In this document: positions 845-20,047 of the stretch, piece after piece
How the letters are laid out: each line of letters starts with the position of its first letter
Numbering within the stretch: the first letter of the stretch is position 1
Virus record (IMG/VR): IMGVR_UViG_3300047553_000130
Location: 1-20,724 of that record
From: a virus
Reading direction: 5' to 3' (one strand)
Length of the DNA stretch: 20,724 bases
Translations under genes and position numbers: made by a program
Notes under the pieces: generated by a model
Database searches by the model: none
What the model saw: the letters and a program-made list of their open reading frames with translations, nothing else
Told to the model about the DNA's origin: nothing

Positions 845-1060
845 ATGATTCAGTTTGACCATGTGAGTGACAGCTTCTGCGTCAAAGATGGCGACAAGTG
901 GCTCTACTTCGACAGCGTGTCGAAGGCCAAAGACGCAGTGCGCCAGGTGAAGATGAAAGAGGCGGTCAAGGCCGAACGCGAACAGGTAGCCGCATGGCTG
1001 CGCCGCATCGGCAAGCCACAGATGGCTGACGCCGTGGAAGCTGGGGAGCATCTGCAATGA
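845..1060 (+). CDS. Small hypothetical phage protein (71 aa)
   Basis: I do not recognise this protein. An upstream in-frame ATG exists, but the start at 845 is preferred because AAAGGAG lies a few bases before it and the polymerase stop is only 16 bases upstream. The N-terminal half has a small beta-type, aromatic pattern (MIQFDHVSDSFCVKDGDKW). The second half is a charged helix rich in Lys, Glu and Ala. It ends in Gln (CAATGA) and the ATGA stop-start overlap begins the next gene, so it opens the translationally coupled chain. No function can be inferred. Confidence 0.8.
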   Translation: MIQFDHVSDSFCVKDGDKWLYFDSVSKAKDAVRQVKMKEAVKAEREQVAAWLRRIGKPQMADAVEAGEHLQ

Positions 1061-1272
1061 CCGACCGCAATGAAGACAACGAGATCATCGACACCGCCCT
1101 CGACACGCTGGCTTGGCAGCGCCGCGAGATCGACCGCCTGACTGCCGAGAACGAGCGGCTGCGGAACGATCACGCGTCTGCCGTTGCCGAATTGAATAAG
1201 ACAAAGGCGCTGCTCAAAGGCTATCGCCGGGGCTACAAAACAGCCCGCGCCGCACTGGGAGACACGCAATGA
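1057..1272 (+). CDS. Small coiled-coil protein (71 aa) with shared module
   Basis: The protein is almost wholly helical and charged, with a predicted coiled coil around REIDRLTAENERLRNDHAS (residues 24-43). This module recurs in the genes at 1996 and 2612, partly as exact DNA repeats. The C-terminus is ARAALGDTQ, encoded by a 30-bp sequence repeated exactly at the end of the gene starting at 2612. The start overlaps the previous stop as ATGA, with GGGGAG just upstream. I infer a multimerising accessory protein; no enzymatic motif is visible and the function is unknown. Confidence 0.8.
   Translation: MTDRNEDNEIIDTALDTLAWQRREIDRLTAENERLRNDHASAVAELNKTKALLKGYRRGYKTARAALGDTQ
1243..1272 (+). repeat. 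Gene-end/gene-start cassette, copy 1 (30 bp)
   Basis: It encodes ARAALGDTQ-stop, and also contains GGGAG and the ATG of the next gene. It is identical to 2951-2980, with related versions at 2248-2271 and 3148-3171. Confidence 0.9.
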
Positions 1273-1475
1273 ACGATGAACGTAAAGAAGCAATGGACCA
1301 ACTGATCGCGATGGATGCTGACCTGATTGACCCCGTGCAGGACAGGCTGGTGCTGGCCGTGCGCGAACTAGCAGCCGATGATAGCCAATGGGTAGCCGAA
1401 GCATTTGCCGCAACACTGCGCAAGGCGCTTGCGATGCATGGCCTCGCCATCGTGAAAGGAGCAGGCCATGGGTGA
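1269..1475 (+). CDS. Small hypothetical phage protein (68 aa)
   Basis: This is an acidic, mainly helical protein without a recognisable domain. The start overlaps the preceding stop (ATGA), and its Shine-Dalgarno is the GGGAG inside the repeated gene-end cassette at 1243-1272. The C-terminus, KGAGHG, is encoded by a sequence that nearly repeats at the end of the next gene (KAAGHDRD). That sequence also carries AAGGAG, which serves the next start. Function unknown. Confidence 0.78.
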   Translation: MNDERKEAMDQLIAMDADLIDPVQDRLVLAVRELAADDSQWVAEAFAATLRKALAMHGLAIVKGAGHG

Positions 1476-1713
1476 CATCTGGCGCTTTGTCTTTGCCGTC
1501 TGGGCAGTGACCGCAGGGCAATGGGTATTTGCGAAACTGCTAGGCCGTTCTCTTGACGAATGGGACCACACCCATGCGGTCATCATGGCAGGGGTTTACG
1601 TAATCGTGAAAGCCATTCGCTCTGACAAGACAGTTGTGCGGGTGATTGGGAATGCGGAGCCGGATAATTGGGAGGCGACCCTCATGAAAGCAGCAGGCCA
1701 TGACCGTGACTGA
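1468..1713 (+). CDS. Small membrane-associated protein (81 aa)
   Basis: The N-terminus is strongly hydrophobic (residues about 4-22: IWRFVFAVWAVTAGQWVF), and a second hydrophobic stretch lies around residues 37-49 (HAVIMAGVYVIVK). One or two membrane helices are therefore likely, followed by a soluble tail of about 30 residues. The gene starts inside the end of the previous one (8-bp overlap) behind AAGGAG at 1455-1460, and it overlaps the next gene by 14 bp. I do not recognise a family. A small inner-membrane protein is the most that can be said. Confidence 0.75.
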   Translation: MGDIWRFVFAVWAVTAGQWVFAKLLGRSLDEWDHTHAVIMAGVYVIVKAIRSDKTVVRVIGNAEPDNWEATLMKAAGHDRD

Positions 1714-1999
1714 CGAGGACCGGAAGGCAGCGAGGGCTGTCTGGATACAGGCTGCGTTCGACTATGGCGGCCAGAGCATCCCCGGCGAGGGTGAAGAACG
1801 CGCCGCAAGGGTTATCGCTGACTTCATAGCCGACACACGCCAAGCCGCCTACGCCGCAGGGCTGGAACGTGCGGCGGTGATTGCGGAGAGGGTGGCTCAA
1901 GCCGAGCTAGGTGGTGTGCATGGCGATTATGCCAAGGGCATTCGCTGGTGTCGTGACCGCATTGGGGACGCAATCCGCGCAGAGAAGGATAAGACATGA
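1700..1999 (+). CDS. Small hypothetical protein (99 aa)
   Basis: This is a soluble, Ala/Arg/Glu-rich, mostly helical protein. Stretches such as RVIADFIADTRQAAYAAGLE and CRDRIGDAIRAEKDKT resemble small phage proteins often found in such clusters, but no catalytic motif is visible. The start lies within the last codons of the upstream gene (14-bp overlap), in a junction resembling the one at 1452-1470. The stop overlaps the next start (ATGA at 1996). Function unknown. Confidence 0.8.
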   Translation: MTVTDEDRKAARAVWIQAAFDYGGQSIPGEGEERAARVIADFIADTRQAAYAAGLERAAVIAERVAQAELGGVHGDYAKGIRWCRDRIGDAIRAEKDKT

Positions 2000-2271
2000 C
2001 CGAGGATAATCTGGTGAAGCGGTTGAACTATTGGATTGATGAGGCGCACCGCGAAAACGAATGGTCCGATCTCATGGATGTTCGCTACCGCATCGAAGCC
2101 CTGACTGCCGAGAACGAGCGGCTGAAGCGTGAAGTCCTGTTGCAGATGGGCTGGAAAACGGAAGCGCAGAAACGGCTTGCGCTACTGGAAGAGGCGCTAG
2201 AGTTCATCGCCACTGAAGGCGGCCAGACTGAAAGTCGGGTGGCATTCGCCGCACTGGAGGGGAAGCAATGA
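1996..2271 (+). CDS. Small coiled-coil protein (91 aa) with shared module
   Basis: It is helical and charged. It carries the recurring coiled-coil module YRIEALTAENERLKRE (residues about 31-46), encoded by a 38-bp sequence at 2087-2124 that is repeated exactly at 2664-2701 in the gene starting at 2612. The C-terminus AALEGKQ is a divergent version of the AALGDTQ ending seen in neighbours, and its DNA (2248-2271) supplies GGAGGGG as Shine-Dalgarno for the following gene. Stop and start overlap as ATGA at both ends. Function unknown; likely to oligomerise. Confidence 0.8.
   Translation: MTEDNLVKRLNYWIDEAHRENEWSDLMDVRYRIEALTAENERLKREVLLQMGWKTEAQKRLALLEEALEFIATEGGQTESRVAFAALEGKQ
2087..2124 (+). 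repeat. Coiled-coil module DNA repeat (38 bp), copy A
   Basis: It encodes RIEALTAENERL in the 1996 gene and is identical to 2664-2701. A 27-bp part (1138-1164) occurs in the 1057 gene, and a 19-bp part (2431-2449) in the 2268 gene. Confidence 0.9.
2248..2271 (+). repeat. Gene-end/gene-start cassette, diverged copy
   Basis: It begins GCCGCACTGG, as in the 30-bp cassette, and ends GCAATGA, with GGAGGGG in between. It encodes AALEGKQ-stop and supplies the ribosome site for the gene at 2268. Confidence 0.75.
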
Positions 2272-2615
2272 CGGAAAAATGCCTACACGCTTCGGACTGC
2301 GACTGGCACGTTGACCAGTACCCGTGGGAATGCACTTGCGGGGCGATACCGCGCAAGGCGGCTATGGATGAACTGGTTGCAGATAGCGCCGACGAACTAT
2401 GGGCCAAGCACGAACGAGAACACTTGTTCGACCGCATCGAAGCCCTGACCATCGCCAACACCGGCTTGCACGATGAGATCGAAGACCTGCGTGAAAAGCT
2501 GGCTGCTGCCTACATCGCCCTGTCCGGAACAGACGTACACGCTTCGGACTGTGCTACATCTAACGCGCCAGCCTATGAGCCGGGACCGTGCGACTGCAAG
2601 GGGGCAGAGCAATGA
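2268..2615 (+). CDS. Cys/His-rich protein with two matching end motifs (115 aa)
   Basis: Two similar Cys/His motifs flank a helical, charged centre. The N-terminal one reads HASDC, ten residues, then CTC. The C-terminal one reads HASDC, twelve residues, then CDC. A 16-bp DNA sequence is identical in both (2284-2299 and 2536-2551). The pattern looks like metal binding, probably zinc, but no named zinc-finger family fits clearly. The centre contains a partial copy of the recurring module (DRIEALTIANTGLHDEI). It sits in the overlapping chain (ATGA at both ends) and ends in Gln. The function is unknown; a paired zinc-knuckle adaptor would be one reading. Confidence 0.78.
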   Translation: MTEKCLHASDCDWHVDQYPWECTCGAIPRKAAMDELVADSADELWAKHEREHLFDRIEALTIANTGLHDEIEDLREKLAAAYIALSGTDVHASDCATSNAPAYEPGPCDCKGAEQ

Positions 2616-2980
2616 ACGGCGTGACGCAATGGGAAGCCAAGGAGATCATCCGCGAGAAAAACGACCGCATCGAAGCCCTGACTGCCGAGAACGAGCGGCT
2701 GCGGGAGGCGTATAAAAACGCAAACGAAGCATGGGGTATTGCACAGCTTGAGGTCGAGCGGCTGCGGGAGGCGTTGGTAGCTGAACGCGAGGAGAACCTA
2801 TGGAGCGCCTATGCCACGGGCGATGTGATTGGCGATGAGTGGACGCACTTGTTTATGTCGGACGGTGAATGGCTGGCTAAGGAATGCGGCTTTGATCCTA
2901 GGCAGGGGTATTACAGCGCCGAAGCTATTCGCAACGCCATTCCTATAGCTGCCCGCGCCGCACTGGGAGACACGCAATGA
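2612..2980 (+). CDS. Coiled-coil protein with shared modules (122 aa)
   Basis: The start at 2612 overlaps the preceding stop (ATGA) and has GGGGG about seven bases upstream. An earlier in-frame ATG would overlap more and lacks support. Residues 12-60 form a long coiled coil with two copies of an ERLREA heptad-like unit. The first contains the module NDRIEALTAENERLREA shared with neighbours. A C-terminal globular part follows, including WTHLFMSDGEWLAKECGFDP. The last residues, ARAALGDTQ, come from the 30-bp cassette (2951-2980) identical to 1243-1272. The gene looks like a longer module carrier; function unknown. Confidence 0.8.
   Translation: MNGVTQWEAKEIIREKNDRIEALTAENERLREAYKNANEAWGIAQLEVERLREALVAEREENLWSAYATGDVIGDEWTHLFMSDGEWLAKECGFDPRQGYYSAEAIRNAIPIAARAALGDTQ
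2664..2701 (+). repeat. Coiled-coil module DNA repeat (38 bp), copy B
   Basis: This second exact copy lies in the 2612 gene. With the following bases, 2678-2704 also equals 1138-1164 over 27 bp, so the three genes share patches of different length. Confidence 0.9.
2951..2980 (+). repeat. Gene-end/gene-start cassette, copy 2 (30 bp)
   Basis: It is base-for-base identical to 1243-1272. It encodes the C-terminus of the 2612 gene and provides Shine-Dalgarno and start for the 2977 gene. Confidence 0.9.
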
Positions 2981-3171
2981 CCGAAGAACTGAAGATTGGA
3001 GATCGCGTCGAGAAGGTCAAAGGCTATCGCTGGCCTGGCGTGATCGTCGCCATCTTTGAAACCACGCAGGGCAAGCTGCGCTACGTTGTCGAATGCACGG
3101 TGCCAGAGGTTGCTGGCGCGCTTCACATCTATGCGCCGGAGCAGATCGCCGCACTGGGAGACGCGCAATGA
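2977..3171 (+). CDS. Small SH3-like beta protein (64 aa), hypothetical
   Basis: The sequence GDRVEKVKGYRWPGVIVAIF followed by GKLRYVVECTVPEVAGALHIY is a compact beta-strand pattern. It resembles small SH3/KOW-like phage and alphaproteobacterial proteins of unknown function; this likeness is from memory. It ends in AALGDAQ, a one-base variant (3148-3171) of the recurring cassette. Its start uses the GGGAG of the cassette at 2951-2980 and overlaps the previous stop by 4 bp. The function is not known; nucleic-acid or protein binding would fit the fold. Confidence 0.8.
   Translation: MTEELKIGDRVEKVKGYRWPGVIVAIFETTQGKLRYVVECTVPEVAGALHIYAPEQIAALGDAQ
3148..3171 (+). repeat. Gene-end/gene-start cassette, one-base variant (24 bp)
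   Basis: It matches the last 24 bases of the 30-bp cassette with one difference (ACGC for ACAC), giving AALGDAQ-stop. It provides the ribosome site and start for the gene at 3168. Confidence 0.85.
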
Positions 3172-3329
3172 CTAGGCAGATCATCGGCGCATTGATGGCT
3201 TTCACCCCGTTTCTCGCGGCTATGGCCTACATAGCCTACCAAGCGCCTGCGATAGTCCTTGTGGCGGTACTAGGCATACTTGCGGTCCTCGCGTGGTATG
3301 GCATCGCCTTGCATCTGCTATGCGAATGA
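3168..3329 (+). CDS. Small two-helix membrane protein (53 aa)
   Basis: Nearly the whole protein is hydrophobic. One helix covers residues about 4-23 (IIGALMAFTPFLAAMAYIAY) and a second covers about 27-49 (AIVLVAVLGILAVLAWYGIA). Only a few polar residues lie at the ends. The start at 3168 overlaps the previous stop (ATGA), with GGGAG in the cassette just upstream; longer in-frame starts lack this. It is most likely an inner-membrane miniprotein. A holin-like role is possible but unsupported, since the lysis block is elsewhere. Confidence 0.75.
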   Translation: MTRQIIGALMAFTPFLAAMAYIAYQAPAIVLVAVLGILAVLAWYGIALHLLCE

Positions 3330-3409
3330 CCCCCGCTCTGCGCCACTGGCTCTGGACCCAGTTCGGCTGGGATATTTACGATTGGGAACCTGAGGAGATT
3401 AGGTTTTGA
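3326..3409 (+). CDS. Tiny hypothetical protein (27 aa)
   Basis: This reading frame of 27 codons starts with ATG overlapping the previous stop (ATGA) and ends TTTTGA, overlapping the next start. It is Trp/acidic-rich (HWLWTQFGWDIYDWEPEEIR). No strong Shine-Dalgarno precedes it, so translation would rely on coupling. It is called because it fills exactly the gap between two overlapping genes in an otherwise unbroken chain. Function unknown, and it could be mainly a translational relay. Confidence 0.55.
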   Translation: MTPALRHWLWTQFGWDIYDWEPEEIRF

Positions 3410-3570
3410 CTGAACAAGAACTTATTCCGTACCTGGGCAAACGTATCCTGGCGGATGCAGATAAGCTCCGGCTCTTCATGCCGGATTGCTTCGCTAGGTT
3501 CCCACTCGAATGGAATGGAGCGCAATATGAAATCCGCATCATACAAAAGAGGGAAGAGGAAGATGACTGA
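3406..3570 (+). CDS. Small hypothetical protein with TTG start (54 aa)
   Basis: A TTG at 3406 overlaps the upstream TGA (TTGA), with GAGGAG about ten bases before it. The frame then runs 54 codons: MTEQELIPYLGKRILADADK, then LRLFMPDCFARFPLEW, with an acidic end REEEDD. The opening MTE matches several neighbours that begin MTE or MTD. The stop overlaps the ATG of the next gene by 8 bp. It fills the only hole left in the chain. Function unknown. Confidence 0.6.
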   Translation: MTEQELIPYLGKRILADADKLRLFMPDCFARFPLEWNGAQYEIRIIQKREEEDD

Positions 3571-3691
3571 GATATTCATAGCAGCCGCAGTAGGCGCTGG
3601 GATGACCGCGTTCTTCTACGCCATCCATCTTGTGCGCGAAGCGATCATTCGCGGCGTTGACGACCTAGACGATATTGACTGGATGCAATGA
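3563..3691 (+). CDS. Tiny single-TM protein (42 aa)
   Basis: The start at 3563 is preferred over longer in-frame starts because AGAGGAAG lies directly upstream and it overlaps the previous stop by 8 bp. The N-terminus forms one membrane helix (residues about 3-20: EIFIAAAVGAGMTAFFYAIH). The C-terminal tail is acidic (DDLDDIDWMQ). It ends CAATGA like many genes here and overlaps the following HTH-DnaA gene by 4 bp. No family is recognised. Confidence 0.65.
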   Translation: MTEIFIAAAVGAGMTAFFYAIHLVREAIIRGVDDLDDIDWMQ

Positions 3692-4278
3692 CACACAAAT
3701 CAACCTTTGACTTGGATGCGGTCCAGAAGACTATTCGCGACCGCATCGGGGAAGCTATTGGCTCAAGCGGCTTGCCTTCGCACAAGGCCGCGGGGATGTC
3801 TGGTTATTCGCCAGCACATCTGCGTAGGCTCCGCAATGGTGAGGGCAAGAACCCGACCATCGCTGGGATATGGTCGTTAGCCGAAGCCATGAATGTGAAC
3901 CCGCACTGGCTGCTCGGTTCGCCATACGTCACGAAGTACACGGGCATTGAAGACCCGCAAGAAAGGAAGAGCGTGCTTACCTCTGAAGTTATCGACGAAG
4001 CGAGTAGACTGTTTCATGTACACCCACGGGACATCACTGGCCCCTATCGCTACCAGTTCTTGATGCCCGTTCGCTTCGCCCTTTATCACTCGTTTCGCAA
4101 ACGGGGGTTGTCATACCCGCATATCGGTCGCATCATGAACCGCGATCATAGCAGTGTGATCTACGGAGCGCAGCAGGCAGTATATCGGATGGAGCGCGAC
4201 GCGGAGTACGCGGCGAAGGTTGAGCAGCTAATCAATTTCCGTCCGAAGATTGAGAGCGAGGAGATAGAACATGGCTGA
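3688..4278 (+). CDS. HTH + DnaA domain IV fusion, DNA-binding protein (196 aa)
   Basis: Residues about 12-76 resemble a Cro/CI-type helix-turn-helix (AAGMSGYSPAHLRRLRNGEG, then NPTIAGIWSLAEAMNV). Residues about 100-181 match the C-terminal DNA-binding domain of the bacterial initiator DnaA: a basic loop, LSYPHIGRIMNRDHSSVIYG, and a long last helix. RDHSSV at 152-157 corresponds to the DnaA RDHTTV signature that reads the DnaA box. The AAA+ ATPase and DnaB-loading domains are absent, so it cannot initiate like DnaA. It may bind the phage origin, occupy host DnaA boxes, or act as a regulator. It overlaps DUF2800 by 8 bp in the replication operon. Domain calls are strong; the role is inferred. 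Confidence 0.85.
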   Translation: MTHKSTFDLDAVQKTIRDRIGEAIGSSGLPSHKAAGMSGYSPAHLRRLRNGEGKNPTIAGIWSLAEAMNVNPHWLLGSPYVTKYTGIEDPQERKSVLTSEVIDEASRLFHVHPRDITGPYRYQFLMPVRFALYHSFRKRGLSYPHIGRIMNRDHSSVIYGAQQAVYRMERDAEYAAKVEQLINFRPKIESEEIEHG

Positions 4279-5428
4279 GATCGCACACGCCTCATTCGGC
4301 GCGTCAAACGCCAAGCGACGCATGGCTTGTCCTGGTAGCCTTAACGCCGAATCAAAGTTCCCCGACACGTCAAGCCCGTTCGCGGAGCTTGGCACTGCGG
4401 CGCACGAACTGGGCGAGTATTGCATCGAGAATAACATCCAAGATGTGTTCACGATGCTCGGCCGCACGTTCAACGATCATGTCGTAGATGACAACATGGC
4501 CTCCGCTGTGCGTGTCTACGTAGACTACGTTAACTCAGTCGCGGAAGAAGAAGCGCCGGCCTTGCTGAAGTTGGAGCAACGCTTCAGCCTTGAGGCCCTC
4601 GATCCGCCGATGCCGATGTTCGGCACCAGCGACTGCACGATCTACGGCAAAGAGACTGGCAACCTCTGGGTGATCGACTACAAGCACGGCCAGGGCGTAG
4701 CTGTAGACGCGGAAGACAATCCGCAGCTAAAATACTACGCGCTCGGCGCTGTGCTGAAGATCGGCAATCGCGCCCCGATCAACGCGATCCACACCGCGAT
4801 TGTCCAGCCGCGCGCACCGCATCGTCTGGGTTCGATCCGGACGCACAGCTATACGAAGGATGAAATCCTCGGCTTCGGCACCGACCTGATTGACGCAGCG
4901 CACGCGGCTATCAAGCCCGACGCGCCGCTTATTGCCGGCGACCACTGCAAGTTCTGTAAGGCGTCGGGCACTTGCTCGGCTTTGCGGAGTAACGCTCTGG
5001 CCGTAGCGCAGGATGAGTTCGGCGTGACGCGCAGTGTCGAAGACCTGACGCCGGAAGAAGTTGCAAATTATATGGACAAGATTCCGCTCCTCGAAGAGTG
5101 GATCAAGTCTATCCGCCGCCACGCGCACACGATGCTTGAGACTGGGCAGGCGCTGCCCGGCTTCAAGCTGGTTGAGAAGCGGCCGACTCGTCGTTGGAAG
5201 AACGAAGAGGAACTGCTGGCGTGGGCGACGACCGAAGGTCTCGAAGACGATGACATCTACGATAAGAAGTTGAAGTCGCCTTCGCAGATCGAGAAGGTAG
5301 TTGGCAAAAAGAACTTGCCCGCTACTCTCGTAATGGCGGTGTCAACTGGGGTCTCGATGGTCCCTGATACCGACAACCGACCGCCAGCCGCGCTCCTTGC
5401 GGCTGACGAATTTGACGTGACTGAGTAA
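4271..5428 (+). CDS. DUF2800 family PD-(D/E)XK nuclease (385 aa)
   Basis: The protein resembles phage DUF2800 proteins, RecB/Cas4-like nucleases found next to DUF2815 and phage polymerases. Visible motifs are His45 in ELGTAAHELGEYC, Asp121 in MFGTSDCTIYG, Asp136-Lys138 in WVIDYKHGQG, and Gln152 in NPQLKYYALG. These correspond to the RecB-type nuclease core. Cys20 (in MACPGS) with Cys226, Cys229 and Cys235 (CKFCKASGTC) matches the four-cysteine Fe-S arrangement of Cas4/AddB-like nucleases. A role in recombination or end processing is inferred from the family. The gene overlaps the HTH-DnaA gene by 8 bp and is followed after 14 bp by the DUF2815 gene. Confidence 0.85.
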   Translation: MAEIAHASFGASNAKRRMACPGSLNAESKFPDTSSPFAELGTAAHELGEYCIENNIQDVFTMLGRTFNDHVVDDNMASAVRVYVDYVNSVAEEEAPALLKLEQRFSLEALDPPMPMFGTSDCTIYGKETGNLWVIDYKHGQGVAVDAEDNPQLKYYALGAVLKIGNRAPINAIHTAIVQPRAPHRLGSIRTHSYTKDEILGFGTDLIDAAHAAIKPDAPLIAGDHCKFCKASGTCSALRSNALAVAQDEFGVTRSVEDLTPEEVANYMDKIPLLEEWIKSIRRHAHTMLETGQALPGFKLVEKRPTRRWKNEEELLAWATTEGLEDDDIYDKKLKSPSQIEKVVGKKNLPATLVMAVSTGVSMVPDTDNRPPAALLAADEFDVTE

Positions 5429-5442
5429 ATAAGGAAACTCCG

Positions 5443-6003
5443 ATGACCAAGGTAATTACCCCTGAAGCCGTTATCAGCTACCCGCATATCTTCGAGCCGC
5501 AGACTCCGCCGGGAGCAAGCGAACCCGTCTATTCCTGCTCTCTGGTGTTTCCAGACGGAACCGACATCACCGATCTCAAAGCCGCAGCCCTCGCCGTTGG
5601 CAAAGAGAAGTGGGGCGACAAGTTCAAAGCCCTGCTCCAGTCCGGAAAGATTCGTATGCCGTTCCGCGAAGACGGTGTCGAGAAGGGCTATCCTGAAGGC
5701 TCGACGTTCATGAACGTTAAGTCGAAGCAAGCGCCGCAGGTCGTGTCGAAGTTTGCTGGCGCCGACGGCAAGCCCGCCCCGATCACTGATCCGAAGGAAA
5801 TTTATCCTGGCGCCAAGGTCCGTGCTTCGCTGCGCGCCTACGCTTACAGCGTCAACGGTAACAACGGCGTGGCCTTCAGCCTCGGCAACATCCAGAAGAC
5901 GGATGACGGCCCGCGTATGGACGGTCGCCTCTCGGCTGCTGATGAATTCTCTGCCGAAGCTCGTCCGTCCGCAGACATTTCGGACTTGGATGATCTCTTG
6001 TGA
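5443..6003 (+). CDS. DUF2815 family single-strand DNA-binding-like protein (186 aa)
   Basis: The length, sequence style (KVITPEAVISYPHIFEPQ, then YSCSLVFP) and position after DUF2800 identify a DUF2815 protein, thought to be a phage ssDNA-binding/OB-fold protein. The acidic tail ADISDLDDLL resembles the SSB C-terminal peptide that recruits replication partners. It would coat single strands made by the polymerase and nuclease. AAGGAAAC lies upstream of the ATG at 5443. It is the last gene before the terminator at 6036-6071. The family call is from memory of the cassette; the biochemical role is inferred. Confidence 0.82.
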   Translation: MTKVITPEAVISYPHIFEPQTPPGASEPVYSCSLVFPDGTDITDLKAAALAVGKEKWGDKFKALLQSGKIRMPFREDGVEKGYPEGSTFMNVKSKQAPQVVSKFAGADGKPAPITDPKEIYPGAKVRASLRAYAYSVNGNNGVAFSLGNIQKTDDGPRMDGRLSAADEFSAEARPSADISDLDDLL

Positions 6004-6093: not shown

Positions 6094-6600
6094 ATGACCA
6101 AGCATATTATGACCGCGGAAGAAGCGCGTCAACTTTTTACGTACAACGAAGAAACTGGCGAACTGCACTGGACAATAGATGTCCGGCCGCGCGCAAAGAA
6201 AGGCGAGGTAGCCGGATTTATATGTCCGGCCGATGGCTACCGACGTATAGGCTACAAAGGTTCTATAAATCTTGGACACCGAGTGATGTGGCTGTTCCAC
6301 ATGGGTCGTTGGCCACATAAGTTCCTCGACCATATCGACGGGAACAGAGCAAACAATCGTATAGAGAATTTACGTGAAGCGTCTCGTACTGACAACAACA
6401 GAAACGTAGCAATACAGCGCAATAATACTTCTGGTTATAAAGGGGTTAGTTTGATGCGACGCGACAACGTGTGGGTCGCGCAGATAACTGTTAACCGAAA
6501 GAACTATTTCCTGGGCCGCTTCGCTACACCAGAAGAAGCACACGCCGCGTATTGCAAAGCGGCGAAAGAACTTCACGGCGAGTTTGCTAACACTGGCTAG
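6094..6600 (+). CDS. HNH homing-type endonuclease with AP2 DNA-binding domain (168 aa)
   Basis: The middle carries an HNH_3-type nuclease core: His62 (GHRVMWLFHMG), DHIDGNRANN (Asp79, His80, Asn84) and ENLREASRTDNNRN. The C-terminus (residues about 113-168) is an AP2 DNA-binding domain (SGYKGVSLMRRDNVWVAQI, FLGRFATPEEAHAAY). Such proteins are free-standing mobile nucleases in phages. TAGGAG lies eight bases before the ATG at 6094. The gene sits after the operon terminator, so it needs readthrough or its own promoter. By hand count its G+C is about 49%, against about 58% for DUF2815 next door, consistent with recent arrival. Its stop shares CTAG with the oppositely transcribed helicase stop. 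Confidence 0.9.
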   Translation: MTKHIMTAEEARQLFTYNEETGELHWTIDVRPRAKKGEVAGFICPADGYRRIGYKGSINLGHRVMWLFHMGRWPHKFLDHIDGNRANNRIENLREASRTDNNRNVAIQRNNTSGYKGVSLMRRDNVWVAQITVNRKNYFLGRFATPEEAHAAYCKAAKELHGEFANTG

Positions 6601-7880
6601 TCCAGAACCTCAGAGATCATCTGGGCTTTCTTAGCAAGTGCGCGTGCAACTATTTCGTCGCAGGAATTTGCAAGGCCAAATGACCGCACGATCACTGGCT
6701 TAGACTGGCCGATGCGGTGGCATCGCTTTGAAGCCTGGGCGTTCGTTGCTGGCACCCAGTCCATCTCCACGAAGACAACTTGGTTCGCAGCCGTGAGCGT
6801 GATCGCGGTCGAGCAGGCCGTGATCTGGCCGATGAAGACGCGGCACGACGGGTCAGTCTGGAACCTATCAATTTCGGACTGTCGCTCCTGATTTGCCATA
6901 CCGCCCACCACGTAGGCCGGGTTGAACTCCGCCAGTTCTTCGCGCAACGCTTCGAGCGCGGCGCGGTGATAGGCAAACACTACCACCTTGTCGTAGGCAT
7001 GGTCCTTCAACTCGGCCGATAACTGCGCAGCGACCGGCTTCGCCTTGGCCAGTGCGGTGAGCCGGCGGAGCGAGGCCATGCTGGACACAATTGAATCGAG
7101 TTTGCCGGACACGTCGTCTTGCGTGACGGCGCTTTGCAAGATAAGCTCGACGGCTTGGCGCTCGTCCGGGCTTTCGATGTGGGCCGTGTCGTCCCAGTTG
7201 GCGACTTCGACTACGGTGTCCTGCCACCACAGCGGCGGCAACTCCGTCAGAACTTTATCGGCCTTGCGGCGGAGCATGATCGACTGGAGGATGGACTTGA
7301 ACTCGCCCATTCGTTCAGCTTTGTTGCCTAAAACCTTAAGACCGAACTGCCTGTTCCAGGTCTTGCAGAAATACAGAGTATAATCGACGAAGTTTAATGG
7401 GTAGTTCCATATCGCTTTAAGATGAGTCCAGAAGTCAGAGACATCATTAGGAATGGGAGTGCCGCTAAGAAGCCAAACACGGTCGCTGAAACGAACAAGA
7501 CCGTCGCCACGACAGTACTGACCATATAGGTACTTTGTGCGCTTAGCTTGACGATTTTTAAGATAGTGCGCTTCGTCGATGACGAGAACATCCGGTTCCA
7601 GTTTGGCGATCTCATTACGCGCTTCCTTCGATTGCGTTAGTTTGTCGTAACTGTAGATTACTACTTCGCGCTCGATCTTACCCCAGCGTTCGAACTCGCG
7701 GCGCCAGTTAATCTTGGCGATGGCTGGACAGACTACGGCAACTTTCTTCAGGCCAAGCTGGTCGCACGCGGCTATGACTTGGATCGTCTTGCCTAGCCCC
7801 TGCTCATCCGCGAGAAACGCCGCGGGATTTTCTGCGAGGAATTTTGCCCCCGTCTTCTGATACTCGAATAGGTGATCCAT
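6597..7880 (-). CDS. SNF2-family DNA helicase/translocase (427 aa)
   Basis: This is a compact SF2 Swi2/Snf2 enzyme, close in style to SMARCAL1-like phage helicases that use ATP to remodel or anneal branched DNA. From the start at 7880, motif I is DEQGLGKT (25-32), motif II is DEAH (102-105), motif III is LLSGTPI (137-143), and motif VI lies in RCHRIGQ (386-392). ATG at 7880 is preferred over a TTG 30 bp upstream because GAGAGG and GGAG lie just before it. The gene overlaps the RuvC-like gene by 77 bp in another frame. It is the last gene of the minus-strand operon. Residues about 90-200 come from a more A+T-rich stretch. Activity is expected from the intact motifs. Confidence 0.92.
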   Translation of the reverse strand: MDHLFEYQKTGAKFLAENPAAFLADEQGLGKTIQVIAACDQLGLKKVAVVCPAIAKINWRREFERWGKIEREVVIYSYDKLTQSKEARNEIAKLEPDVLVIDEAHYLKNRQAKRTKYLYGQYCRGDGLVRFSDRVWLLSGTPIPNDVSDFWTHLKAIWNYPLNFVDYTLYFCKTWNRQFGLKVLGNKAERMGEFKSILQSIMLRRKADKVLTELPPLWWQDTVVEVANWDDTAHIESPDERQAVELILQSAVTQDDVSGKLDSIVSSMASLRRLTALAKAKPVAAQLSAELKDHAYDKVVVFAYHRAALEALREELAEFNPAYVVGGMANQERQSEIDRFQTDPSCRVFIGQITACSTAITLTAANQVVFVEMDWVPATNAQASKRCHRIGQSKPVIVRSFGLANSCDEIVARALAKKAQMISEVLD

Positions 7881-8358
7881 TCTCCAGCCTCTCTGCGGCG
7901 TAGCAAGCAATCAGCGCAGCATCCGCCCGCCCGTCGTCCTTCTTCCGTGCGAAGAGGTGCGCCTGGTCAGGGAAAAGTTCTTGCGCTCTTGCTCGGCTTC
8001 CGTCCTTTCCGCCAAACAATCGCATAGCCTTAGTCCACGTTTGCGGCGGGATCAAGGCGAAAGGAATGTCAAGCGCGGCCAGCACGCCTTCGAGTACACC
8101 AGCCGCACGGCCGAAGCTGAAAGTAGAAGCGACGCCTTGCCCCGGCATCGAGTGGACTTTCTCGACGGCTGCGGTCATGCCCTCGGTTACATGTAACCGC
8201 AACGCAGAAGAAAGGGCCACGGCGTCAACCTGATTGACGGTCCGTGGCCCTCGCTTAACCTTAGTAGTGGGCATATCTATAACGACAATCGAACGGTCGT
8301 CCGTGTCGAGAAGTACCAAAGCGCCAGAAGCGCCGGGGTCAACGCCCAGGATTTTCAT
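7804..8358 (-). CDS. RuvC-like Holliday junction resolvase (184 aa)
   Basis: The RNase H-like fold of RuvC is evident. GVDPGASGALVLLD holds the first acidic residue (Asp7), AAVEKVHSMPGQGVAS holds Glu66, and RKKDDGRADAALIACYA holds the final acidic pair (Asp141/142, Asp146). It would cut four-way junctions during phage recombination or clear branches before packaging. The basic tail (IPRRKSRGVSRG) is encoded in the region overlapping the helicase start. No clear Shine-Dalgarno precedes 8358; the upstream gene ends 17 bp before, so coupling is possible. Pairing with the SNF2 helicase supports a branched-DNA role. Confidence 0.88.
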   Translation of the reverse strand: MKILGVDPGASGALVLLDTDDRSIVVIDMPTTKVKRGPRTVNQVDAVALSSALRLHVTEGMTAAVEKVHSMPGQGVASTFSFGRAAGVLEGVLAALDIPFALIPPQTWTKAMRLFGGKDGSRARAQELFPDQAHLFARKKDDGRADAALIACYAAERLENGSPIRVSEDGGKIPRRKSRGVSRG

Positions 8359-19384: not shown

Positions 19385-20047
19385 TCACGCAGCCAATGAG
19401 TCTGGAAATACTCGCGGCGTCCAAGTTTCGCTTGTATCAGAAAGCGGAGTCCAAGTCTCGCTTGTTGTTTCTTGCGGCGTCCAAGAAATAGCAGTATCCG
19501 CCTGAGTAGTCCATGTCTCAGGCGTAGTTTCTTGTGGCGTCCAACTTTCCGGTGTTACCGGTTGCGGCTCCCACTTCTCTACCGCATCTACAGTTACGCT
19601 TGACTGCGCATTCGCAGCGATAGCGGCGCCCAGAACGCGCGTAGCAGAGACTTGCGCGGACGACTGCGCGTTGGTCGTAATGCTGACAAGGAACACGCCT
19701 TGCAGCGTGCAACTAACCGAAGCCGCGGCGTCTGATGTAGCGCCGCTCTGCTGAATGCGAGTAGCGGCAACAGTCGTACTAGACGTGGCGCTGGACGTGA
19801 TGCTCGGCTGCTGGACGCGCGTAACCGAAACCGAACCGCTTGCCGCTGCATTAGCTGTAGCGGAGATCGACTGGACGCGATTAGCAGTAACAGTCGTCGA
19901 GGACGTAGCCGACGTATCGACAGCGGCCAGCTTTACGATCTGCGCGGACGCAGACGCAGAAGACGTGGCGCTTACGGCGACCACAATCTCCTTGGGGTCT
20001 ATGCCGTAATTGCCACGTCCGTAAAGGCCGCTACCGTAGCCGGCCAT
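19385..20047 (-). CDS. Repeat-built virion protein: 20-residue and 10-residue repeats (220 aa)
   Basis: A Gly/Tyr start (MAGYGSGLYGRGNYG) leads to six complete, exactly 20-residue units (residues 26-145) and a partial seventh. Typical units are SATSSTTVTANRVQSISATA and NAAASGSVSVTRVQQPSITS. From residue 159 a second array takes over: tryptophans at 159, 169, 179, 189, 199 and 209 mark a decapeptide such as WTPQETTPET. The first array looks like small Ser/Thr/Ala beta repeats. The second is probably extended and sticky. The gene lies between Gp80-like and tail-fibre genes, so a virion or fibre-attachment protein is inferred. Similar repeat proteins are known in phages without assigned function. 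Confidence 0.75.
   Translation of the reverse strand: MAGYGSGLYGRGNYGIDPKEIVVAVSATSSASASAQIVKLAAVDTSATSSTTVTANRVQSISATANAAASGSVSVTRVQQPSITSSATSSTTVAATRIQQSGATSDAAASVSCTLQGVFLVSITTNAQSSAQVSATRVLGAAIAANAQSSVTVDAVEKWEPQPVTPESWTPQETTPETWTTQADTAISWTPQETTSETWTPLSDTSETWTPRVFPDSLAA
19424..19573 (-). repeat. Array of five 10-residue (30-bp) Trp repeats
   Basis: Five complete 30-bp units encode decapeptides starting with Trp (W-T-P-Q-x-T-x-x-E-T type), and a sixth partial unit follows to the end of the gene. Trp spacing is exactly ten residues throughout. Confidence 0.82.
19613..19972 (-). repeat. Array of six 20-residue (60-bp) protein repeats
   Basis: Six units of exactly 60 bp encode a loosely conserved [S/N]A-x-[S/A]S-x-x-V-x-x-T-R-[V/I]-Q pattern, with a partial seventh continuing to about 19574. 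The period is kept exactly although the sequence varies. Confidence 0.8.

Follow-up and report, generated by a model that had tools for sequence, protein, structure and literature searches.

Short coding joints as probable sites of mini-gene exchange in a hypervariable island of a tailed phage

The DNA analysed here, called the window, comprises positions 1 to 20,724 of the IMG/VR virus record IMGVR_UViG_3300047553_000130, a 20.7 kb piece of a tailed-phage genome that is recorded as a virus contig. A DNA polymerase gene at 10-828 is followed by ten small plus-strand genes (mini-genes 1 to 10) spanning 845-3329, each of which overlaps the next by ATGA, by 8 nt or by 14 nt. On the 3' side of this run lie a helix-turn-helix (HTH)/DnaA-C-like gene, a DUF2800 exonuclease gene and a gene for a Gp2.5/Enc34-like single-stranded DNA (ssDNA)-binding protein. 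Repeated 18-mers cover 261 bases of the whole window, and 217 of these 261 bases fall inside 849-3325. This region is best read as a hypervariable island, in which small, apparently coupled genes are placed between the gene for the DNA polymerase and a block of replication/recombination genes. The short repeats of the island, termed joints (J1 to J4 and others, Table 1), and their part in the reshuffling of the mini-genes are the subject of this study, for which the window was compared with metagenomic viral contigs labelled L005, L008, L024 and so on.

The first-pass annotation of this DNA had described a cassette that is at once a gene end and a translation start, and recomputation recovers every copy of it. 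The 30 nt at 1243-1272 and 2951-2980 form an exact repeat, a 24-mer with one mismatch is present at 3148-3171, and the copy at 2248-2271 has diverged, with 5 differences from the 24-mer; 100 dinucleotide shuffles of the window yield no match to the 24-mer at three or fewer mismatches. As had also been described, each copy encodes the last residues of a gene, contains a Shine-Dalgarno (SD)-like GGGAG or GGAG(G), and ends in an ATGA stop/start overlap; the SD-like motif lies 5-7 nt before the ATG. From the overlap and the SD-like motif, we infer that translation of the adjoining genes is coupled. The 24-mer of this joint family, J2, with three variable positions, occurs at 27 sites in 23 further viral contigs, closing an open frame at 26 of the 27 sites and opening one at 25, and in these 23 contigs it is preceded by about 20 different gene ends and followed by 22 different gene starts. 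The diverged copy (J2', 2247-2272) proves on comparison to be a joint in its own right, with 26 nt from 2247 identical in L054 and differing flanks. On the reverse strand of L010 (601-624), a copy matching at 23 of 24 positions carries a lone change that creates the TAG ending the upstream gene in another frame, and the downstream gene uses its SD-like motif and ATG; this copy is suggestive, with chance possible at the ~1% level by a rough estimate.

The genes around the cassette had been taken to be otherwise unrelated, which does not hold: those at 1057-1272, 1996-2271, 2268-2615 and 2612-2980 share a longer coiled-coil repeat, J1, that had been overlooked. J1 is the longest exact repeat in the window (38 nt at 2087 and 2664; the copies at 1129, 2429 and 2750 are shorter); it is intragenic and encodes the coiled-coil heptad stretch DRIEALTAENERLR. 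The J2 cassette can accordingly be described as one of several joint types, of which one is intragenic and, as read from the contigs, yields chimeric proteins. In a survey of 73 loci around one recurrent mini-gene, J1-like copies were found in 21 loci and J2-like copies in 19, on the gene strand only, the reversed patterns giving no match; as neighbours, the family of this mini-gene has 22 gene families on the upstream side and 18 on the downstream side.

Recombinant arrangements are found at both joint types. One gene of L008 consists of the 5' part of mini-gene 2 and the 3' part of mini-gene 8, matching at 310 of 321 positions with a single crossover, which is placed within 14 bp of the shared J1 repeat. 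In L005, the 3' half of mini-gene 2 is joined to a Lar-like 5' half. At the J2 cassette, the first site of L142 and the site of L149 are 0.99 identical over the 120 bp upstream and 0.30 identical downstream, and the second site of L142 and that of L146 give 0.95 and 0.36; L149 and L146 switch in the opposite direction, with 0.25 upstream and 0.94 downstream. Additionally, mini-gene 8, L008 and L006 have a common upstream end that is followed at the cassette by three different downstream genes, and the cassette peptide ends the SH3-like gene (mini-gene 9) in the window but not in L008.

The wider comparison of the island is in line with these recombinants. In L024, the closest relative covering both sides, the segments 1-848 and 3326-5985 are matched at 92.7% and 82.6%, respectively, with different small genes between them, and more distant relatives (polymerase 70-74% identical) hold zero to four small genes at the island position. 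Where the island matches other contigs, it does so in blocks of 80-240 bp with 91-100% identity that extend from joint to joint: 1031-1164 (L008), 1129-1276 (L005), 1290-1470 and 1679-1888 (L054), 1697-1881 (L053), and 2755-2991 and 2954-3146 (both L008). The mini-gene blocks are 89-97% identical across contigs that have only about 27-40% identity in their polymerase or exonuclease. Block ends, i.e., the ends of high-scoring segment pairs (HSPs), lie in within-window repeats in 10 of 19 cases, compared with 3.2 expected under circular shifts (p 0.0004). Across 17 contigs, 97 of 163 block ends lie at the contig's own repeats or gene junctions, compared with 30.8 +- 5.6 expected (0 of 2000 shifts).

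The cassette had been proposed to be a moveable joint at which mini-genes are inserted, swapped or lost, and these comparative tests support that proposal: different mini-genes sit between cassette copies in related contigs, and the breakpoints of related contigs fall at the cassettes. The outcome that would have spoken against it, an unchanged gene order without shuffling and shared ends drifting as after duplication, is contradicted by the gene set of L024, by the recombinants at the cassette and by codon identity.

Codon identity was evaluated on joint copies with unlike upstream flanks, where, for the residues that agree, the share encoded by the same codon was compared with the expectation from codon usage. 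Same-codon identity is 0.90 in both J1 and J2, compared with expected values of 0.39 (J1) and 0.32 (J2). The joints themselves are 0.92 (J1) and 0.89 (J2) identical, and their flanks mostly 0.27-0.34, reaching 0.44-0.47 only at the positions directly next to the joint. A degenerate scan of the viral collection for AALGD-(T/A)-Q-stop retrieves 7 stretches, compared with 6 for the exact DNA 24-mer. Because the shared codons lie far above codon usage and the degenerate scan adds little, the DNA itself, and not only the peptide, is shared. Repeated past exchange at the joints, along with identity of the joints at the DNA level in unrelated contexts, is evident from these contig comparisons.

Table 1. 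Joints, mini-genes and candidate recombination genes of the window (nt, nucleotides; aa, amino acids; ORF, open reading frame).
Feature	Position	Strand	Basis or remark
J2 copy 1 (ARAALGDTQ, GGGAG, ATGA)	1243..1272	+	repeat search
J2 copy 2	2951..2980	+	repeat search, cross-contig comparison
J2 copy 3 (AALGDAQ, one mismatch)	3147..3172	+	mismatch search, comparison with contigs
Diverged cassette J2' (AALEGKQ, GGAGGGG, ATGA)	2247..2272	+	26 identical nt in L054, flanks unlike
J1 copy 1 (IDRLTAENERLR), intragenic	1129..1164	+	repeat family D1/D6; HSP ends and crossover 1152-1165
J1 copy 2	2087..2124	+	38 nt identical to 2664-2701
J1 partial copy (DRIEALT)	2429..2449	+	21 nt identical to 2662-2682
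J1 copy 3	2662..2711	+	repeat search, contig comparison
J1 partial copy (VERLREAL)	2750..2777	+	crossover site of the L008 chimera (2755-2768)
Joint closing mini-gene 1 (EAGEHL-Q/K, stop, ATGACCG start)	1031..1060	+	start of 94.8% block common with L008
J3 copy 1 (GTGAAAGGAGCAGGCCATG: gene end, SD-like AAAGGAG, start)	1447..1475	+	repeat D19; common to L053, L054, L066
J3 copy 2	1679..1714	+	repeat D19; L066 97%, L053 92%
Intragenic joint (RQAAYAAGLERAAVIAE)	1838..1888	+	51 nt 100% identical to L066, gene otherwise different
J4 (AIRAEKDK-T/P, stop, ATGACC start)	1969..2002	+	common to L053, L054, L066
Mini-gene 1 (71 aa, ending EAGEHLQ), first in variable island	845..1060	+	ORF, ATGA overlap with mini-gene 2
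Mini-gene 2 (71 aa, coiled coil)	1057..1272	+	5' half fused to 3' half of mini-gene 8 in L008
Mini-gene 3 (68 aa)	1269..1475	+	block 1290-1470 common with L054 at 91%
Mini-gene 4 (81 aa, hydrophobic)	1468..1713	+	ORF, 8-nt overlap
Mini-gene 5 (99 aa)	1700..1999	+	blocks common with L053, L054 stop within gene at 1881/1888
Mini-gene 6 (91 aa, coiled coil)	1996..2271	+	ORF/overlap analysis
Mini-gene 7 (115 aa)	2268..2615	+	ORF/overlap analysis
Mini-gene 8 (122 aa)	2612..2980	+	3' module with three different 5' halves: window, L008, L065
Mini-gene 9, SH3-like (64 aa)	2977..3171	+	L008 version of gene without cassette ending
Mini-gene 10 (53 aa, hydrophobic), last in variable island	3168..3329	+	L024 backbone resumes at 3326
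Exonuclease (DUF2800 / PHROG exonuclease), possible actor	4271..5428	+	PF10926 E 4e-92, phrog_69 E 3e-98
Gp2.5-like ssDNA-binding and annealing protein, possible actor	5443..6003	+	PF10991 E 5e-32, phrog_112 E 2.5e-38
RuvC-like Holliday junction resolvase, possible actor	7804..8358	-	phrog_1770 E 5e-34

These observations are best explained by mosaicism through homologous recombination at short shared boundary DNA, with the exchange of whole mini-genes at J2, J3 and J4 or of half-genes at J1, a reading to which we assign a probability of about 0.82. Joints of ~20-50 bp sit where modules meet, either at the gene-gene overlaps, where they hold end codons, SD and ATGA, or in the middle of coiled-coil genes. 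Where the same joint is present in two co-infecting phages, or in two copies of one genome, homologous pairing over it would join the upstream module of one to the downstream module of the other, and mini-genes or half-genes would thereby be inserted, lost or swapped. The frame and the start signals would survive the exchange, since the joint itself supplies either a stop together with SD and start or a heptad stretch that is in frame. The step may be executed through single-strand annealing by the phage exonuclease and the Gp2.5-like protein, or by host RecA; profile matches indicate that an exonuclease, a Gp2.5-like annealing protein and a Holliday-junction resolvase are all encoded in the window. 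The lengths of the joints (24-51 bp) are close to the shortest lengths over which Redbeta (23-27) and RecA (31-34) are reported to pair (PMC3945230). The cassette is better seen as shared homology used in recombination than as a self-moving element.

Several points weigh against this explanation. Approximately 40% of the block ends (66/163) lie at neither a repeat nor a gene junction, which indicates that other exchange routes operate too, and the breakpoint p-values are optimistic because HSP ends from related contigs are partly dependent. Many joints have less than 30 bp of exact identity, which is near the lower limit for homologous recombination, and the exchange is read indirectly, from contigs that are all metagenomic. 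Additionally, just before the cassette of mini-gene 8 (window 2924-2950), 8 out of 9 codons in a row carry changes relative to L008 and L065, every one of them synonymous, which suggests an amino-acid constraint at this place, and peptide selection may act on some gene ends. This patch is located between 170 bp without a difference from the same two contigs and the identical cassette, and it looks like a short piece from a diverged homologue with the same peptide; a source for it was sought in all loci and not found.

The same patch bears on the alternative that the endings form a functional C-terminal tag, involved in localisation, partner binding or stability and kept by protein selection, with the DNA identity being secondary. 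The synonymous nature of all eight changes and the recurrence of AALG-D/E endings on many unrelated mini-proteins are both in keeping with such a tag, but the near-invariance of the synonymous codons of J2 is not, and joints with other endings (EHLK, EKDKT, KGAGH) or within genes act alike. Moreover, the SH3-like gene can carry the ending or lack it, as in L008, and the L010 copy is used for initiation (SD and start), the upstream gene terminating in a different frame. A tag as the primary cause is therefore considered unlikely.

Duplication with subsequent divergence, in which the mini-genes would be old paralogues and the shared ends their best conserved part, might be expected from the fact that several genes in tandem share both the coiled-coil segment and the ending. 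A tandem paralogous family would show homology along whole genes, however, and here the identity in the joint flanks is at random level and falls far below that of the joints, one upstream end is followed by unrelated genes, the change being abrupt at the joint, and the modules are common with other contigs from joint to joint at 91-97%, which makes this origin very improbable. If the joints were recognised by a site-specific recombinase or an integron-like system, they would be expected to recur between cassettes in one orientation only, as they do. Nevertheless, no inverted repeat or stable hairpin is found at the joint, whose folding is no better than that of shuffled sequence, the same job is done by several unrelated joint sequences, intragenic coding stretches among them, and no integrase or reverse transcriptase is present among the window proteins examined, the genome being incomplete; such a system is likewise given very little credence. 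Although all of the sequences are metagenome assemblies, the false joining of unrelated fragments via short repeats is the least credible alternative, as the 24-51 bp repeats are shorter than usual reads and k-mers, identical or near-identical arrangements occur in separate metagenome assemblies (L058/L063, L055/L056, L065/L007; the window's own arrangement is seen in one assembly), and frames and overlaps are intact across the joints.

For the products of the window mini-genes, Pfam gives sub-threshold matches only, and PHROGs gives weak matches only, with function unknown. The SH3-like mini-protein (2977-3171) weakly resembles the type II (R67) dihydrofolate reductase (PF06442, E 0.0014, below the cut-off; PDB 2p4t, E 0.0086), with LHIY where the chain has VHIY. 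Lar-type restriction-alleviation domains (PF14354) are found in L005 (6281-6754) and L008 (reverse strand 4353-4619) as 5' modules that are fused to J1 or end in J2. Their position suggests that anti-restriction modules belong to the shuffled pool, and the presence of the domain hints that the island may hold counter-defence or takeover proteins. We infer that the mini-gene products are accessory early-type proteins, some of them with Lar domains. A further mini-gene, on the reverse strand of L056 (505-780 of the extracted region), encodes a 91-residue protein consisting largely of G-N-G-D-G-Y repeats.

The mini-genes and their DNA have no match in 50,697 annotated phage records, and no cultured example or host was therefore found. 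A scan of 84,980 species genomes for the J1 pattern found nothing, and in a second genome scan only two contigs of one Gammaproteobacteria metagenome-assembled genome encode a related mini-protein, which does not fix the host. Elsewhere in the window, an HNH endonuclease with an AP2 domain (6094-6600) adjoins the Gp2.5-like gene and has relatives in several contigs at 31-52% identity, and a WTPQETTPETWT-like unit is repeated at 19404-19544, near the C-terminus of a tail-type protein (gene 19385-20047, minus strand).

Homologous exchange at short conserved boundary, or linker, sequences is an old proposal for the mosaicism of lambdoid phages (PMC3029335, PMC2327257). The joints resemble such linkers in being short shared DNA at module borders, with homologous exchange and retained module function: the same short DNA borders different modules in different phages (23 contigs), identity drops to background on both sides of it, and one parent is found upstream and another downstream (L142/L149/L146, window/L008/L006 and the L008 chimera). 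Unlike the lambdoid linkers, the joints lie inside coding sequence, combine stop, SD and start, and occur several per genome, with an intragenic type that makes chimeric proteins. A close precedent is provided by genes 67 and 68 of mycobacteriophage Island3, which have a 60-bp shared 3' end and for which, by comparison with Brujita, recombination over about 50 bp has been proposed (PMC3029335). There, as here, adjacent small genes share only their 3' ends, in DNA and protein, and a relative holds the recombinant; Island3/Brujita is a single event in one phage pair, whereas the present case extends over an entire island with several types of joint and involves more than 20 contigs, some of which differ in backbone.

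The Start Associated Sequences (SAS) of Cluster K mycobacteriophages (13 bp, GGGATAGGAGCCC, in most cases within gaps of more than 50 bp) are likewise repeated short SD-containing sequences just before the starts of unrelated accessory genes, but they are not tied to upstream gene ends or breakpoints (PMC3203893). The joints belong neither to the SAS nor to the ESAS type, as their sequence differs and the genes here overlap by ATGA. In another group, the T4-type phages, mobile regulatory cassettes (Arbiol et al. 2010) are said to be repeated short elements that are thought to aid accessory-gene shuffling, and reportedly consist of intergenic early promoters with stem-loops. The joints lack both the intergenic gap and the hairpin and are not of this promoter/stem-loop kind. 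The shuffling of fragments between phage proteins has been reported mainly for core functions, and more of it is expected in unknown accessory proteins (PMC10684548); for the half-gene exchanges described here, it is possible to name the DNA joint that serves as the point of exchange. The process is therefore of a known kind, here unusually dense, coding and coupled; one of its joints is intragenic, and phages that differ in backbone have it in common.

For decades, illegitimate recombination followed by selection and homologous recombination at short conserved borders have been competing accounts of how phage mosaics originate. The debate has lasted in large part because, at most mosaic borders, shared sequences are reported as not findable (PMC3029335). 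Clear cases of homologous exchange at short borders have previously been few. The island provides a natural case with nameable border sequences, in which ~60% of breakpoints lie at repeats or gene junctions, compared with ~19% expected, and the border question becomes testable with single crosses. A further-reaching idea, which we regard as doubtful, is that the joints are kept by selection as exchange points and that unrelated phages share an open library of half-genes. If this were true, new proteins for host takeover or anti-restriction could be put together in frame from 5' modules, a coiled-coil hinge and 3' modules, a combinatorial arrangement comparable to exon shuffling but with no introns involved. 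The island also shows how new small accessory proteins may arise from halves, and codon-identical joints with unlike flanks provide a signature by which such exchange can be searched for elsewhere.

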